Of a stretch of 64,000 nucleotides of DNA, positions 1-45,376 are shown piece after piece. Made by a program: the position numbers and the translations under genes. The notes below the pieces were generated by a model. That model was not told the origin of the DNA. It did no database searches and saw only the letters and a program-made list of their open reading frames with translations. Each line of letters starts with the position of its first letter. Position 1 is the stretch's first letter. The stretch lies in NCBI GenBank assembly GCA_017694755.1, contig JADIMO010000087.1, positions 1-64,000 on the forward strand. Direction: 5' to 3'. Source of the stretch: Candidatus Cryptobacteroides merdavium. GTDB lineage: Bacteria; Bacteroidota; Bacteroidia; Bacteroidales; UBA932.

Positions 1-335
1 GTCCGTTTCATTTCAAAAACCGTGTAATTGGCTATATTTCAATAATTTCAAAGAACTATTTATCCACTTTTACGGGACAGTAGTGATGATTGGATTTAAA
101 ACATTTGTCTCAAATTTACAAAAAAATAAATTCATAATCCGTGTTTTTCATAAAAATGAATTTTTAATGGCATAAAAAACATCCGGGATTGTCAAAAAAC
201 AGAAAAAAGATGGGCATTTCAGGCGGGCAGCAGGGTGAAAAAAAGAAATACTTTCACTATCTTTGTTAAATATGGGCTGCAGTTTTTCAGCAGTTCCAGA
301 TAACCATTGTTGTTATAACACTAACTGATGATTTT

Positions 336-24669: not shown

Positions 24670-25308
24670 TCAGCCTACCACCCAGACCAGGACATGCCTG
24701 TCAAAAGTGATGTAGCTGAGTTCAAAATCCTCTTCGTACCCGTCCTTGTGGATGAATGTCGCGTCAAGTTCACCTTCGTCTTTCGGATTGAATCTTTTTA
24801 CCCTGATCTGCTCTGCAAAGTCCACCTTGCTTTGGGACATCCTCTTGAATATGGCTTCCTTGGCGCACCAGTAGAGTGCGAGCTGCTCGTTAAGTCTGTC
24901 GTCCTCGTCAAGGTCTTCCCTTTCGTCCTCGGAGAGCGCCTTTTCCTTTACCGTGCTGAAGTCCCTGTCCACCGACTCCATGTCAATGCCGAGATCTTCC
25001 TCCTGATGGGTGATGATGGCCACATATCTGTCGGTGTGTGTGATGCTTATGTTGGTTATGCAATTTTCGAGGAACGGCTTCCCGTTGTCATGGTGGCTGA
25101 GGTACACCTTGTCTTCAAACACTTCGTTGAGCAGGGCGCGGACGGCAAGCCTCTGCTTCCGCATGTTTTCATTCCTTATGAGGGATATCTCCTCCATCTC
25201 GTCTGACGGCACCGAACTCAGCTGTATGAGTTCCTCTTCCGTTTCGGTTATCTTCCATACCGAAACTTCTGCCTTGTTGTCAAGTGTTTTTCTAAAATAC
25301 AGTCCCAT
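24670..25308 (-). CDS. 4'-phosphopantetheinyl transferase superfamily protein
   Basis: ISITHTDRYVAII, DLGIDMESVDRDF, YWCAKEAIFKR motifs. Confidence 0.88.
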   Translation of the reverse strand: MGLYFRKTLDNKAEVSVWKITETEEELIQLSSVPSDEMEEISLIRNENMRKQRLAVRALLNEVFEDKVYLSHHDNGKPFLENCITNISITHTDRYVAIITHQEEDLGIDMESVDRDFSTVKEKALSEDEREDLDEDDRLNEQLALYWCAKEAIFKRMSQSKVDFAEQIRVKRFNPKDEGELDATFIHKDGYEEDFELSYITFDRHVLVWVVG

Positions 25309-25377
25309 TATAATAAAGACATATCAATTCAAGGTCATGACAAAGTGTCCCCGGTGACTCCAATATACGACAATCCT

Positions 25378-25492
25378 GTGCGTGCCGACCAGGCACACAC
25401 AAGGCAACGCTCCGATTCATCATCGGAGTCCGCATTAAGTATCATATAGATGCGGTCCGACAGCGGATCTTCTGAGATTGATTCCGCCGCTG
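25378..25492 (-). ncRNA. Four-hairpin structured leader or ncRNA candidate upstream of PPTase
   Basis: Stems at 25378-25400, 25410-25428, 25430-25455 and about 25461-25492; promoter with -7 at 25551-25558 on minus. Confidence 0.5.
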
Positions 25493-25549
25493 GCTGATTC
25501 GTCAATATAGGACTGGGAGGTTCCACTTGTCTTACAATAATTAATTTCC

Positions 25550-25615
25550 GCAAATATAGTCAGAAACCGAGAGCAGAGCAAATTTATTTGCTATGCCGAG
25601 GCGCCACAGTATAAA
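25550..25615 (-). promoter_or_regulatory. Promoter-embedded palindromic repeat, copy A
   Basis: Minus: TTTATACTGTGGCGCCTCGGCATAGCAAATAAATTTGCTCTGCTCTCGGTTTCTGACTATATTTGC. Confidence 0.75.
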
Positions 25616-25649
25616 TGACCGTCAGGTCAAATATAGTCATTTTTTTTAT

Positions 25650-31576: not shown

Positions 31577-32242
31577 TTATTCTCTTGTTTCAGAAAGAAA
31601 AAGTCCGTCCTGCATGTAAAGAGAACGGTCGCACATGGCTGCAAGGTCAGGGTCGTGGGTCACTATTATTATTGTCTGCCCGTATTTGTCCCTCAGGGAA
31701 AAGAAAAGCTTGTGAAGTTCTTCCTTGGTGCGGCTGTCGAGATTGCCGGAAGGCTCGTCTGCGAACAGAACCGAAGGCTTGTTTACAAGTGCCCTTGCAA
31801 TCGCCACCCTCTGCTGTTCTCCTCCTGACAGTTCCGATGGCTTATGGGACATCCTCTCCGACAGTCCGAGGTCTTCTAGTAGTGTCTCTGCTGCTTCCTT
31901 GGCTTCTTTCTCCGGTCTTTCTGCAATCAGAGCCGGTATCATCACGTTTTCAAGGGAAGTGAATTCCGGCAGCAGATGATGGAACTGGAATACGAATCCT
32001 ATCTTCCTGTTGCGGAATTCCGAGAGCCTGCTGCTGTTGAGTTTCAGGACATCTGTCCCGTCTATGGTGAGTGTGCCGGAATCAGGCCGCGACAGTGTAC
32101 CGAGTATCTGCAGCAGTGTTGATTTTCCCGCCCCCGATGCTCCCATTATGGAAACGACCTCTGATCGTTTTGCGCAGAAATCCAGTCCTTTAAGTACTTC
32201 GAGATTCCCGAATGACTTTCTTATTCCGTGAGCTTCTATCAT
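31577..32242 (-). CDS. lolD: LolD/MacB-type ABC transporter ATP-binding protein
   Basis: [45 protein letters not shown]. Confidence 0.9.
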
Positions 32243-32303: not shown

Positions 32304-32370
32304 GCAAATATACGCAGAAGCCGAGAGCAATGCAAACTTGTTTGCAATTGCCGAGGCGCAACAGTATAAA
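32304..32370 (-). promoter_or_regulatory. Promoter-embedded palindromic repeat, copy B (drives lolD)
   Basis: Minus: TTTATACTGTTGCGCCTCGGCAATTGCAAACAAGTTTGCATTGCTCTCGGCTTCTGCGTATATTTGC. Confidence 0.75.
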
Positions 32371-32588
32371 AGTCAGTCACGGGAACGGGCAAACATTACC
32401 GGGACAATGAGTCCATGAACATTTACGCAGATGTCATAGCCGAAGCCACTTGGCTTTCTGAAGCCGAAATAAACCTGTTGTAATCCTGAAAGCTGGGTGT
32501 ATAACGGATTTTTGTTCTGAACAGGCATAAAAGTGTTTGTTCAAAACATTTTTTTCTCAATTTTTTTTGCTTTTTGGAAAAAACAGTG

Positions 32589-40145: not shown

Positions 40146-40189
40146 AGGCAACCTTGTTTGCAATGCTCTCGGTTTCTTTCTATCTTTGC
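40146..40189 (+). promoter_or_regulatory. Promoter-embedded palindromic repeat, copy C
   Basis: AGGCAACCTTGTTTGCAATGCTCTCGGTTTCTTTCTATCTTTGC; TTTG-N20-TATCTTTG. Confidence 0.75.
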
Positions 40190-40206: not shown

Positions 40207-43200
40207 ATGATTATGGAGAAGAGAAAATTCGATCTTTGGAGCAGGGTATCCGCTGCATTTGTCTTTGTGGTGTCTGCGGTAACCTATCTGATGACAATAG
40301 AACCTACGGCATCTTTCTGGGACTGCGGGGAATTCATAGCATCATCGTACAAGCTTGAGGTGGGGCATCCGCCGGGAAATCCTGTATTCCAGCTTATTGC
40401 GAGATTCTTTACCATGTTCGCCGACAATATGCATGCGGCGGTGGCCGTGAATGCGATGAGTGCCCTGTGTTCTGCGCTAACGGTATTTTTCCTTTATCTG
40501 ACGATAGTGTTTCTGGCCAAAAGGCTTGTGAAACCGTCTGAGGACGGGAAATACACGGTGCCGCAGGCGATTGCCATATATGGCGCGGGCATAGTAGGTT
40601 CCCTTGTATACTGCTTCTCCGATACATTCTGGTTCTCTGCGGTCGAGGGCGAGGTATATGCCATGTCGTCCCTTTTCACCGCAATGGTGTTCTGGGCCAT
40701 GACCAAATGGTATGAACAGGCGGACCAGCCATATGCAAACCGCTGGATAGTGCTGATAGCCTTTCTTATAGGCCTTTCCATAGGCATTCACCTCCTCAAC
40801 CTGCTCGCGATTCCTGCCCTGGTCTTCCTCTTCTATTATAAGAAAAGGGAGAACGGCCATTATTCTTTCTGGGAATATGTGAAGATTTTTCTCGTCTCCT
40901 GCGTGATACTGGCGCTTATCCTTTTCGTGATAATCCCATATCTCCCGAAGACGGCGGCATATTTCGACCTTCTGTTCGTGAATACCTTCGGACTGCCGTT
41001 CAACAGCGGAGCCATCTTCTTCATGCTGCTGCTTTTCGCCCTCTGCTTCTGGGGCATCTTCGTTACGATGAAGAAAAAGAAGGTGTTCTGGAATACCGTT
41101 CTCCTATGCTTCACGACGATAGTCATAGGCTTCTCCATATTTTCAGTGGTTGTGATAAGGTCTTCTGCCAAGACTCCTACCAATGAGTATCAGCCGGACA
41201 ATCCTTTCACTCTCGTACGTTATCTTGCGAGGGAGCAGTACGGCACCACGCCTCTGATCTACGGACAGTATTTCGATGCCCCGTATGACTGGAAGGACGG
41301 GAAATACTGGGCTCCGCTTGGTGACAGGTATGTCCATGCGGAATCCACCGGAAAGCCTGTTTACCGCAGTGAGGGCAAGATGCTTTTCCCTCGTATGTGG
41401 AACGGCACGGACAGCAAGTATGTGGACTTCTACAATGCATATATAAAGAAAGGAAAGCCTGTGCCCGGTGCGGAGCACAACAAGCCTACTTTCGGCGACA
41501 ATATGCGCTTTTTCTTTGACTACCAGCTCAACTGGATGTACTGGAGGTATTTCATGTGGAATTTTGCCGGCAGGCAGAATGAAATACACAGTCCGACTCC
41601 GGGAGATATTTTCATCGGCAACTGGGAGAGCGGCATAGGCTTCATCGACAAGGCCCGTCTCGGAGACCAGAGCGATGCCCCTGCCTACCTGAAGGACAAC
41701 AAGGGCAAGAATCATTATTACATGCTGCCGCTGCTCCTTGGAATAATAGGCATCTTCTTCCAGTTTGCAAGGGACAAGAGAGGGTCGTGGGTGACTTTCC
41801 TGCTCTTCTTCATGACCGGCATAGCCGTGGTGATCTACCTGAACCAGCCTCCTTACCAGGTGAGGGAAAGGGACTATGCCTATGCAGGATCGTTCTACGC
41901 CTTTTCGATATGGATAGGGCTGGCGGTACTGGCGATATATTCATGGATAGAGAATGCTCTGTCCGGCAAAGGGGAAGCCGCATCCGCTTCTGGCAAATAT
42001 GTGGCCGCCGCCTCTGCGGTTTCGCTTCTCTGTCTGGGAGTGCCGGTGCTCATGGCACAGCAGAACTGGGATGATCATGACAGGAGCAACAGGTACACGG
42101 CTGTCGAGATGGCGAAGAACTATCTCAATTCGGTCGGCCCGAACGGCATCCTTGTGACACACGGGGACAACGATACCTTCCCTCTCTGGTATGCCCAGGA
42201 AGTGGAGGGAGTGCGTACCGATGTCCGCATCTGCAACACGTCCCTTCTCGGTACGGACTGGCATATAGACCAGATGAAGTATGCCTGCAACGAGTCTGCG
42301 CCTCTCGACCTGCAGATAGGACCGGAGCAGTATCTGTACGGCACCAATGATTATGTGATCATCCATGACACCAGGGACCAGGCGCTTCCGATAGCCGATG
42401 TGATGAAGCTTTTCCGTCATCCTGACGTGAAACTCATGATGTCCGACGGCAGCAAGGTGGACTATCTCATATCCAGGAAGCTGATAGTGCCGGTAAACAA
42501 GGAGAATGTGCTGAAGTATGGCATACTTGACGGGAAATATGCCGACCAGATCCCTGACGAGATTGTGCTCACCATTCCGAAGGACAAGCAGTTCCTCTCG
42601 AAGCCGGAGCTCTTCATGCTCGACCTCCTCTCCAATTATCAGTGGGACAGGCCGATCAACCTTCTTCAGATGGGCGGGGAAATCAACATCGGAATCAAGG
42701 AGTATCTTATGTATGACGGATTCTCGTTCAGGTTCGTGCCGATAAAGAACAAGATGAGCCTTTCAAATATCGGCTTCTCGGATCCTGATGACCTTTACGC
42801 CAAGATGACCGGTGTCTTCACCTGGGATGCTCTCAAGCGTACGGATTATTTTGTAGACTACCAGAATGTGACTACATTCTGCGGGGTGATGTCGCAGCGC
42901 AGGCTGTTCTATAATGTGGCTGAAGAGCTTTATGAGGCAGGTGAGAATGCAAAGGCCGAAGAAATCCTGGACAAATGTCAGGAGTGCGTTCCGGAGAGCA
43001 GCTATCCTCTCGACCTTTCCTATCTGAGGACGGGAAATGAACTTGCTGTGGTGCAGATGATAGACCTTTATTACAGGCTTGGAGCTACAGAAAAGGCTAC
43101 TGAACTTGCCGGTAAGCTTGCTGACGGACTCTTCTCTTCGATAAGGTTCTATCTGGAATTCTATGACTATGCCAAACCGAATTTCGAGGAGAGTGCCCAG

Positions 43201-43305
43201 TATATCTACTATATTGCCGACATCATGAGGACCGGAGGCGAGACCGAGGCTGCTGACGCCCTGGAGGCGAGACTTGATTCGCTGCTGGAAGAGTTTGTCT
43301 CTTAG
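40207..43305 (+). CDS. DUF2723-family large membrane protein (O-mannosyltransferase-like)
   Basis: VTYLMTIEPTASFWDCGEFIASSYKLEVGHPPGNPVFQLIARFF. Confidence 0.88.
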   Translation: MIMEKRKFDLWSRVSAAFVFVVSAVTYLMTIEPTASFWDCGEFIASSYKLEVGHPPGNPVFQLIARFFTMFADNMHAAVAVNAMSALCSALTVFFLYLTIVFLAKRLVKPSEDGKYTVPQAIAIYGAGIVGSLVYCFSDTFWFSAVEGEVYAMSSLFTAMVFWAMTKWYEQADQPYANRWIVLIAFLIGLSIGIHLLNLLAIPALVFLFYYKKRENGHYSFWEYVKIFLVSCVILALILFVIIPYLPKTAAYFDLLFVNTFGLPFNSGAIFFMLLLFALCFWGIFVTMKKKKVFWNTVLLCFTTIVIGFSIFSVVVIRSSAKTPTNEYQPDNPFTLVRYLAREQYGTTPLIYGQYFDAPYDWKDGKYWAPLGDRYVHAESTGKPVYRSEGKMLFPRMWNGTDSKYVDFYNAYIKKGKPVPGAEHNKPTFGDNMRFFFDYQLNWMYWRYFMWNFAGRQNEIHSPTPGDIFIGNWESGIGFIDKARLGDQSDAPAYLKDNKGKNHYYMLPLLLGIIGIFFQFARDKRGSWVTFLLFFMTGIAVVIYLNQPPYQVRERDYAYAGSFYAFSIWIGLAVLAIYSWIENALSGKGEAASASGKYVAAASAVSLLCLGVPVLMAQQNWDDHDRSNRYTAVEMAKNYLNSVGPNGILVTHGDNDTFPLWYAQEVEGVRTDVRICNTSLLGTDWHIDQMKYACNESAPLDLQIGPEQYLYGTNDYVIIHDTRDQALPIADVMKLFRHPDVKLMMSDGSKVDYLISRKLIVPVNKENVLKYGILDGKYADQIPDEIVLTIPKDKQFLSKPELFMLDLLSNYQWDRPINLLQMGGEINIGIKEYLMYDGFSFRFVPIKNKMSLSNIGFSDPDDLYAKMTGVFTWDALKRTDYFVDYQNVTTFCGVMSQRRLFYNVAEELYEAGENAKAEEILDKCQECVPESSYPLDLSYLRTGNELAVVQMIDLYYRLGATEKATELAGKLADGLFSSIRFYLEFYDYAKPNFEESAQYIYYIADIMRTGGETEAADALEARLDSLLEEFVS

Positions 43306-43802: not shown

Positions 43803-43898
43803 GCGGTTTGAAAACAGAATGTGGAGAGATTTGGCTGCTTGCAACCACACAAAAAAATGCTAAAATGTTGACTTTATGGTCAATCCTGTTTCGACCGT
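43803..43898 (+). promoter_or_regulatory. SAM-I-type riboswitch upstream of metK
   Basis: GTGGAGAGA...GCTTGCAACCAC...AATGCTAAA core; P4-like TTGAC-TTTATG-GTCAA; P1-like CGGTT..ACAG / CTGTTTCGACCG. Confidence 0.85.
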
Positions 43899-44041: not shown

Positions 44042-45376
44042 ATGAAATATCTTTTTACATCAGAATCGGTGTCCGAAGGACATCCGGACAAGGTGTCCGA
44101 CCAGATTTCGGATGCCATACTTGATGAGTTCCTGAGACAGGACCCTGAATCGAAGGTGGCCTGCGAGACTTTCTGCAGCACCGGTCTTGTGGTCGTCGGC
44201 GGCGAAGTGAGGTCGGAGCATGCGTATGTGGACATCCAGAGCGTTGCCAGGAGGGTGATCAACCGTATAGGATACAACAAGGCGGATTATATGTTTGACG
44301 GAAATTCCTGCGGTGTGCTTTCTGCCCTGCATGAGCAGAGCCAGGACATCAACAGGGGAGTGGTAGTGGAGAACCCTGACGAGCAGGGGGCCGGCGACCA
44401 GGGAATGATGTTCGGCTATGCCTGCTGCGACACCGAGGACTATATGCCGCTTCCGCTTGCCCTCTCGCATCTTGCTTTGAGGATACTCGCAGACATCCGC
44501 AGGAACAGTCCTGAGGAGATGCCTTATCTGAGGCCGGACTCCAAGTCGCAGTTTACGGTGGAATATGACGATGCCGACAACCGTCCGGTGCGTATCCATA
44601 CCATAGTCATCTCCACCCAGCATGACGAGTTCGTTCCTGTGGAGCTCGGACGGATGACCTATGCGGAAGCAGTGGCCCAGTACGGGGCGAAGAAGGTGGA
44701 TGCCGCCATGCAGGCGAAGATCCGGAAGGATGTGGAGGAAATCCTGCTTCCGAGGCTTGTGGCGCAGCTCCCGCCTCAGACTGCAGCATTGTTCAAGGGC
44801 GACTATATCCTGCATGTCAATCCGACAGGCAAGTTCGTCATTGGCGGCCCTCACGGTGACACCGGCCTTACCGGAAGGAAGATCATCGTGGACACCTACG
44901 GCGGCAAGGGTGCGCATGGCGGAGGGGCATTTTCCGGAAAGGACCCTTCCAAGGTGGACAGGTCTGCGGCGTATGCGGCAAGGTACATTGCCAAGAACAT
45001 GGTGGCTGCCGGAGTCGCAAGGGAGATGCTTGTGCAGCTCTCATATGCCATCGGTGTGGCACGTCCGCTCAGCATTTATGTCGACACATACGGCACTGCG
45101 GCCTGCGGGGCTGACGGCAAAAAGTTCAGCGACGCCTTCATCGCGGAGAAGATCGGGGAACTCTTTGACCTCCGCCCGGCAAGGATAATAGAGAAATTCC
45201 AGCTGAAAAAGCCTATATATGAGCCTACTGCGGCATACGGCCATGTCGGACGCAAGCCATACAGGGCCAATGTGGAGCTTCATGTCGGCGGAAAGAAAAC
45301 CATGGAGAATGTGCAGTTCTTCGGATGGGAACTTCTTGACTCGGTCGACAGGATAAAGGAGAGTTTCGGCCTGTAA
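44042..45376 (+). CDS. metK: S-adenosylmethionine synthetase
   Basis: [62 protein letters not shown]. Confidence 0.98.

Follow-up and report, generated by a model that had tools for sequence, protein, structure and literature searches.

A mobile repeat family of Bacteroidales that targets and regenerates -7 promoter boxes, with a Y1 enzyme as its likely mover

Copies A, B and C, three intergenic sequences in a window of 64,000 nucleotides from Candidatus Cryptobacteroides merdavium, are best explained as copies of a non-autonomous mobile repeat that inserts beside a -7 promoter box and rebuilds the promoter, with a Y1 enzyme as the likely mover. We put the probability of this explanation at roughly 0.7. 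That the repeat is mobile and promoter-targeting is held firmly, and its movement by a Y1 enzyme of the type encoded in one clade-mate (genome G029) is likely, from one locus only. Taken as a whole, the family is best read as REP-like, made up of single-strand (HUH-Y1) elements that target promoters and regenerate them.

The first-pass annotation had described the three copies as a palindrome followed by a conserved spacer and a -7 motif. Their positions, the palindrome, the upstream block common to A and B, and the distance of exactly 20 nt from TTTG to TATnTTTG in all three were confirmed by sequence. The pattern TGCTCTCGGYTTCTNNNTATNTTTGC matched exactly at 25550-25575 (-), 32304-32329 (-) and 40164-40189 (+), with a chance expectation in the window of 0.00 (100 dinucleotide shuffles), and the right end of each copy fits the Bacteroidetes housekeeping promoter consensus, a -7 TAnnTTTG with a -33 TTTG (PMC7366714). 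Copy A is longer than first described, reaching upstream to a second TATATTTG. According to the family covariance model, A scored 90 bits, B, which is complete apart from a decayed left hairpin, 77.8 bits spanning 32305-32400, and C, a truncated copy, 21.9 bits. The features are listed below.

25551..25638, minus strand: complete unit of copy A, including the left (target) box (covariance model R1, 90 bits; empty site in genome G082)
25551-25627, minus strand: inserted body of copy A (empty site in the sister genome G082)
25628..25635, minus strand: left box of copy A, TATATTTG, the target -7 box, which stands alone at the G082 empty site
25609..25638, minus strand: hairpin P1 of copy A, including the left box and the guide ATTTATAC (covariation; DNA fold, z = -2.9)
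25574..25595, minus strand: hairpin P2 of copy A (CATAGCAAATAAATTTGCTCTG), whose right arm is the -33 TTTG (sequence, covariation, DNA fold)
25551..25573, minus strand: right end of copy A, spacer CTCTCGGTTTCTGAC and right box TATATTTG (pattern match)
25551-25558, minus strand: right box of copy A, TATATTTG (-7)
32305..32370, minus strand: copy B, which retains guide, P2, spacer and right box but has a decayed left box and P1
32305-32312, minus strand: right box of copy B
40146..40188, plus strand: truncated copy C, with P2, spacer and right box; P1 lost (element-free orthologue in G082)
40181-40188, plus strand: right box of copy C, TATCTTTG
25335..25526, minus strand: small GTG-started ORF of 63 aa, the first frame downstream of A, 24 nt from the -7 box
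24670..25308, minus strand: second ORF downstream of A, 212 aa, phosphopantetheinyl-transferase-like by eye only
31577..32242, minus strand: LolD-like ABC ATPase gene downstream of B (TIGR02211, 266.6 bits, below the cut-off of 307.75)
40207..43305, plus strand: gene for a 1032-aa protein downstream of C, with orthologues in 59 of 61 genomes

No NCBIfam match was obtained for the 212-aa ORF or for the part tested of the 1032-aa protein. The 63-aa ORF (VEPPSPILTN...) lies between copy A and the phosphopantetheinyl-transferase-like gene, and in relatives, too, its first residues are found upstream of that gene.

In promoter orientation, a unit runs from a -7-type box through hairpin P1, a guide, hairpin P2 and the spacer CTCGGCTTCTGCG to another box. 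The left half is made of the left box TATATTTG, a GGCC-loop-GGCC hairpin and the guide ATATAC, and the right half continues with TGTTGCGC, CTCGG, the palindrome P2, CTCTCGGCTTCT, GCG and the right box TATATTTG. P1 as a whole is a palindrome containing the left box, the right arm of P2 supplies the -33 TTTG, and the guide of copy A, ATTTATAC, is complementary to the box. The conserved spacer, which had been thought unusual for a simple promoter, is the element's end and not a regulator site.

The genome of the window (G000) is a MAG of 2.5 Mb in 140 contigs and is 89% complete. It holds 39 family copies at up to 3 mismatches, compared with 0 for a reversed-pattern control, and the suspicion of a family extending beyond A, B and C was thus borne out. 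The count is a minimum, because long forms of the element occur, some of them at contig ends. These carry a structured insert of about 110 nt between the P2 arms and were found in about ten places (L005, L010, L011, L012, L014, L015, L027, L028, L029 and L076); several contigs break inside the long form (C127 at both ends, C24). Many of the 39 copies are arranged in tandem at a spacing of 78-85 bp, corresponding to a unit of about 80 bp. Among 48 same-genus relatives the distribution is patchy, with 36 copies in G041, 11 in G029 and 0-1 in most, and copies are present in the closer clade-mates G082, G084 and G085. Using the covariance model, the family was detected in at least 33 of 393 sampled Bacteroidales genomes from 16 genera, a lower bound with about 11 candidates scored per genome. 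Named carriers include Candidatus Cryptobacteroides spp., Muribaculum sp. An289, Candidatus Merdivivens and Candidatus Pullibacteroides, and both the consensus and the tandem spacing are lineage-specific among the Bacteroidales carriers. A subfamily with TATCTTTG boxes, the guide AGATAC and a 74-bp tandem spacing occupies loci L283-L294 of G072, which belongs to a distant family. Carriage by phage was considered and discarded, as viral contigs gave 0 exact matches and no relative of the TnpA protein described below.

Comparison with the sister genome G082 locates the point of insertion. The empty counterpart of copy A is AATGACTATATTTGC, to which the filled site adds 77 bases and a second box: G082 reads AATGACTATATTTGCAC, where G000 reads AATGACTATATTTG, 77 bases ending in a second TGACTATATTTG, and then CGG. 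Other empty sites in G082 are those of rarA (TTTCGTATTTTTGCGG), the NUDIX-like gene of L018 (GTTTCTATATTTGCAG), ftsE (TTTGACTATATTTGCGG) and rsfS (GTTTATCTTTGCGG). In 18 of 55 comparisons, the element-free orthologue had a TAnnTTTG no more than 20 nt from where the right box would be expected, whereas the motif occurred in 0.35% of control windows (n=289). The unit therefore inserts at the -7 box, whose role passes to the right end of the unit. At rsfS, trxB, hisS and gltX, the G082 orthologue has TATCTTTG as its box where the filled site has TATATTTG on the right, so the element usually brings the right box with it; rarA is the exception, both of its boxes being the variant TATTTTTG. As to a target-site duplication of fixed length, an 8-bp box stands on both sides, the right copy being mostly element-borne, and a simple 8-bp duplication is contradicted at all four genes named, with rarA again the exception. 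Because a unit ends in its own -33, spacer and -7 box, an invaded gene would keep a complete housekeeping-type promoter, presumably active, at about the same distance from its start. In the arrays at L061, L070, L072, L107 and L113, the internal boxes are GATATTTG, with one T, the first, lost, whereas the gene-proximal box is an intact TATATTTG, as expected if selection acts on the last promoter only. In arrays with GATATTTG, the guide of the next unit can carry a compensating ATATCC.

Across subfamilies, the internal guide varies in step with the right end: the right ends CGTATCTTTG, CACTATCTTTG and CGCTATATTTG go with the guides AGATAC, AGATAGG and ATATAGC, respectively. In units without an upstream unit and with differing flanks, the guide matched the right end 39 times and the left end 10 times, a count that comes from automatic parsing and whose statistics ignore phylogeny. 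Copying of the guide from each target was rejected, as the guide follows the right end and not the left flank. In single-strand DNA folding, the guide of one family member pairs with the right box and that of another with the left box. The family thus shows a guide complementary to target and right end, hairpins near both ends and insertion beside a fixed short target, all looked for as marks of an IS200/IS605 derivative; guides of this kind are used by IS200/IS605 elements (PMC6006769).

Both hairpins are kept by compensatory changes. In 29 diverse units, aligned by MAFFT without structure, two-sided changes were found at 15 of 22 pairs and 87.8% of cells pair; covariation was 0.266, compared with 0.123 (sd 0.011) in shuffled alignments and at most 0.077 in slid ones, the latter control being somewhat flattering because the structure was drawn from family members. 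When arms were re-dealt among units, the mean P2 score of 5.3 compared with 2.34 and a maximum of 3.10, and the P1 score on variable bases of 2.21 compared with 1.52 and a maximum of 1.81. Such arm changes would be intolerable to a protein that reads sequence and tolerable to one that reads structure. Together, two hairpins and a guide appear to be the anatomy of a single-stranded HUH-Y1 (IS200/IS605 or RAYT) substrate. The copies are short imperfect palindromes, numerous and intergenic, and in the family consensus the hairpin feet are CTCGG, with neither a GTAG nor a CGTC tag. The first-pass suggestion of a dispersing, promoter-carrying, MITE-like repeat agrees with the dispersal, patchy distribution, tandem arrays and empty sites. 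The MITE label itself does not fit: on inspection, the unit alignment showed ends of GCC... and ...CTTCTGCG without terminal inverted repeats, and a Y1/HUH enzyme is the likely mover.

The copies are found in front of genes: downstream of 115 of the 135 array-terminal units, an ORF of 150 codons or more begins within 150 nt, and under a stricter cut (ORFs of at least 200 codons) 75 of the 135 face an ORF start and 8 an ORF end. The genes served in G000 include trxB, hisS, rsfS, rarA-like, prfB, lolD-like, trpS, lpxK, ftsE-like, gpsA, ispD, gltX and holA, a set of unrelated housekeeping functions in which no regulon is seen. The other first-pass suggestion, a dedicated transcription factor reading palindrome and spacer at a coordinated set of promoters, would account for the fixed 20-nt geometry, the conserved spacer and the promoter orientation of the copies upstream of genes. 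Nevertheless, the palindrome arms vary with compensation, targets such as trxB, hisS, rsfS, prfB and trpS have no common theme, and orthologues in this patchy distribution are often element-free, those in G082 having neither palindrome nor spacer at their promoters; we therefore regard a dedicated regulator as highly improbable. Ancient tandem promoters with no present mobility, spread or kept alike by homologous recombination or gene conversion, would agree with the orthologous sites of sister genomes that hold different internal modules (L002 and L076; L037 and L080), but unrelated genes share one junction at clean empty sites with a single box, and copies with a lineage-specific consensus occur in distant families, which makes this improbable as well. 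That the covarying hairpins belong to a structured RNA leader or terminator and not to a DNA element is hardly credible, given that no Rfam covariance model matched the units, that P1 uses the -7 box as one of its arms, and that transcription from the last promoter is predicted to start beyond the hairpins, so that the gene-adjacent unit would not be transcribed from it.

The evidence for a mover comes from G029, in which a gene found with a RAYT model at relaxed threshold, a Y1/RAYT-like tnpA, lies between two arrays. Gene and arrays form a block of 1,446 bp that sits at a -7 box, and on either side of tnpA the same two units stand in identical order. The filled site reads ...GCATATATTTG / block / TATATTTACCG..., while in G460, with flanks 83-87% identical, the block is absent and the site is GGATAATTTATATATTTGCCGGG; in G085 the site is likewise empty. 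TnpA of G029 has 290 aa and the motifs NHVH and YVMRNP, and is the putative catalyst of the movement. Its 18 homologues have NHVH and YxxRNP motifs in which N, both H, Y, R and N are invariant, and all match NF047646 below its cut-off. G029 TnpA itself stays under the curated cut-offs (41.5 of 80 bits and 20.7 of 23) and matched no solved structure significantly. Relatives of this gene are widespread in the genus, in 340 of 400 genomes. A cognate Y1 gene flanked by copies was seen once, in G029, and not in G000, G041, G082 or G084. These four carriers had no homologue of G029 TnpA and no protein matching PF01797 or NF047646 (one or both models searched), PF01797 (Pfam Y1_Tnp) being absent from G000 and G041; for G000 this is an absence from a genome that is 89% complete. 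NF047646 found no protein in the carriers G173 or G416, an IS200-type TnpA with PF01797 above cut-off was not found in a carrier, and no second pair of tnpA and element was present in the examined loci (1.2 Mb) or near 20 other Y1-like genes. Loci L378-L406 encode numerous Y1-like proteins of about 300 aa, several with unrelated palindromic repeats of their own on either side, and are probably a series of RAYT-repeat pairs.

With one locus linking enzyme and repeat, tnpA is the likely mover. An IS200-like element nested in a four-unit array could mimic the association, and the same repeat might then be moved by a tyrosine recombinase or a DDE transposase, the tnpA of G029 being a chance insertion. 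Carriers such as G000, G041 and G173 without a detectable Y1 homologue would agree with this, as would a box on both sides resembling a recombination core or target duplication, the single variant shared by both rarA boxes, and the unrelated palindromes flanking relatives of G029 tnpA. We nonetheless find another mover unlikely: the tnpA flanks hold identical unit pairs in one order and the whole block replaces one -7 box, terminal inverted repeats are absent, and a guide with two hairpins is what a Y1 enzyme reads (PMC6006769).

Under the preferred reading, movement by a Y1 enzyme, the repeat would insert next to a host TAnnTTTG box, and its right end would bring a -33 TTTG, the fixed spacer and a new TATATTTG. 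The guide between the hairpins may pair with the left box, closing P1, or with the right box, enclosing P2. The enzyme, most likely the RAYT-like Y1 transposase of about 290 aa seen once, would read the hairpins on single-stranded DNA, position the box via the guide and join the unit at TAnnTTTG. As the new box is itself a target, repeated insertion at it would build tandem arrays, which may also arise by recombination between units. We give even odds to the broader idea of an element class aimed at the core promoter. In this view the guide, in single-stranded element DNA, pairs with the -7 box, the unit is inserted there by a RAYT-like Y1 enzyme, and the unit's end restores -33, spacer and -7. 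Essential genes would then rely on a promoter supplied by the parasite, and copies would be protected from removal.

The family works like REP/RAYT systems and IS200/IS605 derivatives, and fails the tag, the usual REP location and the subclass 2.6 signature. Like REP/BIME sequences with RAYT (TnpA_REP), it consists of short intergenic palindromes in many copies and regularly spaced clusters, with one HUH-Y1 gene flanked by copies (REPtron-like, G029). In contrast, it has no GTAG/CGTC tag, carries a promoter and lies upstream of genes at -7 boxes, whereas REPs are mostly downstream of coding regions (PMC3733652). Classical RAYT/REP membership was rejected on the missing tag and the absence of PF01797 from G000 and G041. 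The TnpA_Y1 subclass 2.6 of Bacteroidetes, described with 'atypical secondary structures', shares the phylum, the lack of GTAG and atypical flanking hairpins with further genome copies, but its proteins have about 179 aa, NH[LIV]H and YIH[QN]NP (PMC6006769). With about 290 aa, NHVH and YVMRNP, G029 TnpA lacks that signature. IS200/IS605 elements and their transposase-less derivatives (PATEs) are alike in subterminal hairpins, a short adjoining target and a guide pairing with target and right end; they differ from the present family, whose unit is only about 80 bp, whose single guide appears to serve both ends, whose target is a core promoter box and whose enzyme is only distantly similar. Small mobile repeats that can bring promoters are also known as the Correia repeats of Neisseria, a MITE with terminal inverted repeats and TA target duplication. 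The BrickBuilt MITE of Porphyromonas gingivalis is likewise an intergenic, promoter-carrying tandem repeat in Bacteroidales, with terminal inverted repeats like those of ISPg1, 23-nt direct repeats and bidirectional promoters, and the parts of its description consulted report no targeting of -7 boxes (PMC4596501). A literature search, with most subscription journals outside its scope, returned no description of the present family.

To our knowledge, most mobile repeats avoid or damage promoters. A repeat that lands in the core promoter yet restores it would offer a selfish element low-cost spread in gene-dense genomes, and could rewire housekeeping promoters throughout an order of gut bacteria. 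Such repeats complicate promoter prediction in Bacteroidales and may provide a natural, possibly guide-programmable, system for promoter placement. They also bear on the spread of REP-like elements and Y1 enzymes, because the block with tnpA appears to have moved in one piece.

Two known RNAs were also located. A SAM-II riboswitch (Rfam RF01726, 62.7 bits) lies at 43815-43873 (+) in the window, upstream of an ORF at 44042, and a Bacteroidales small SRP RNA (RF04183) lies at 174-281 (-) of L268, about 0.8 kb from a two-unit array in G082.
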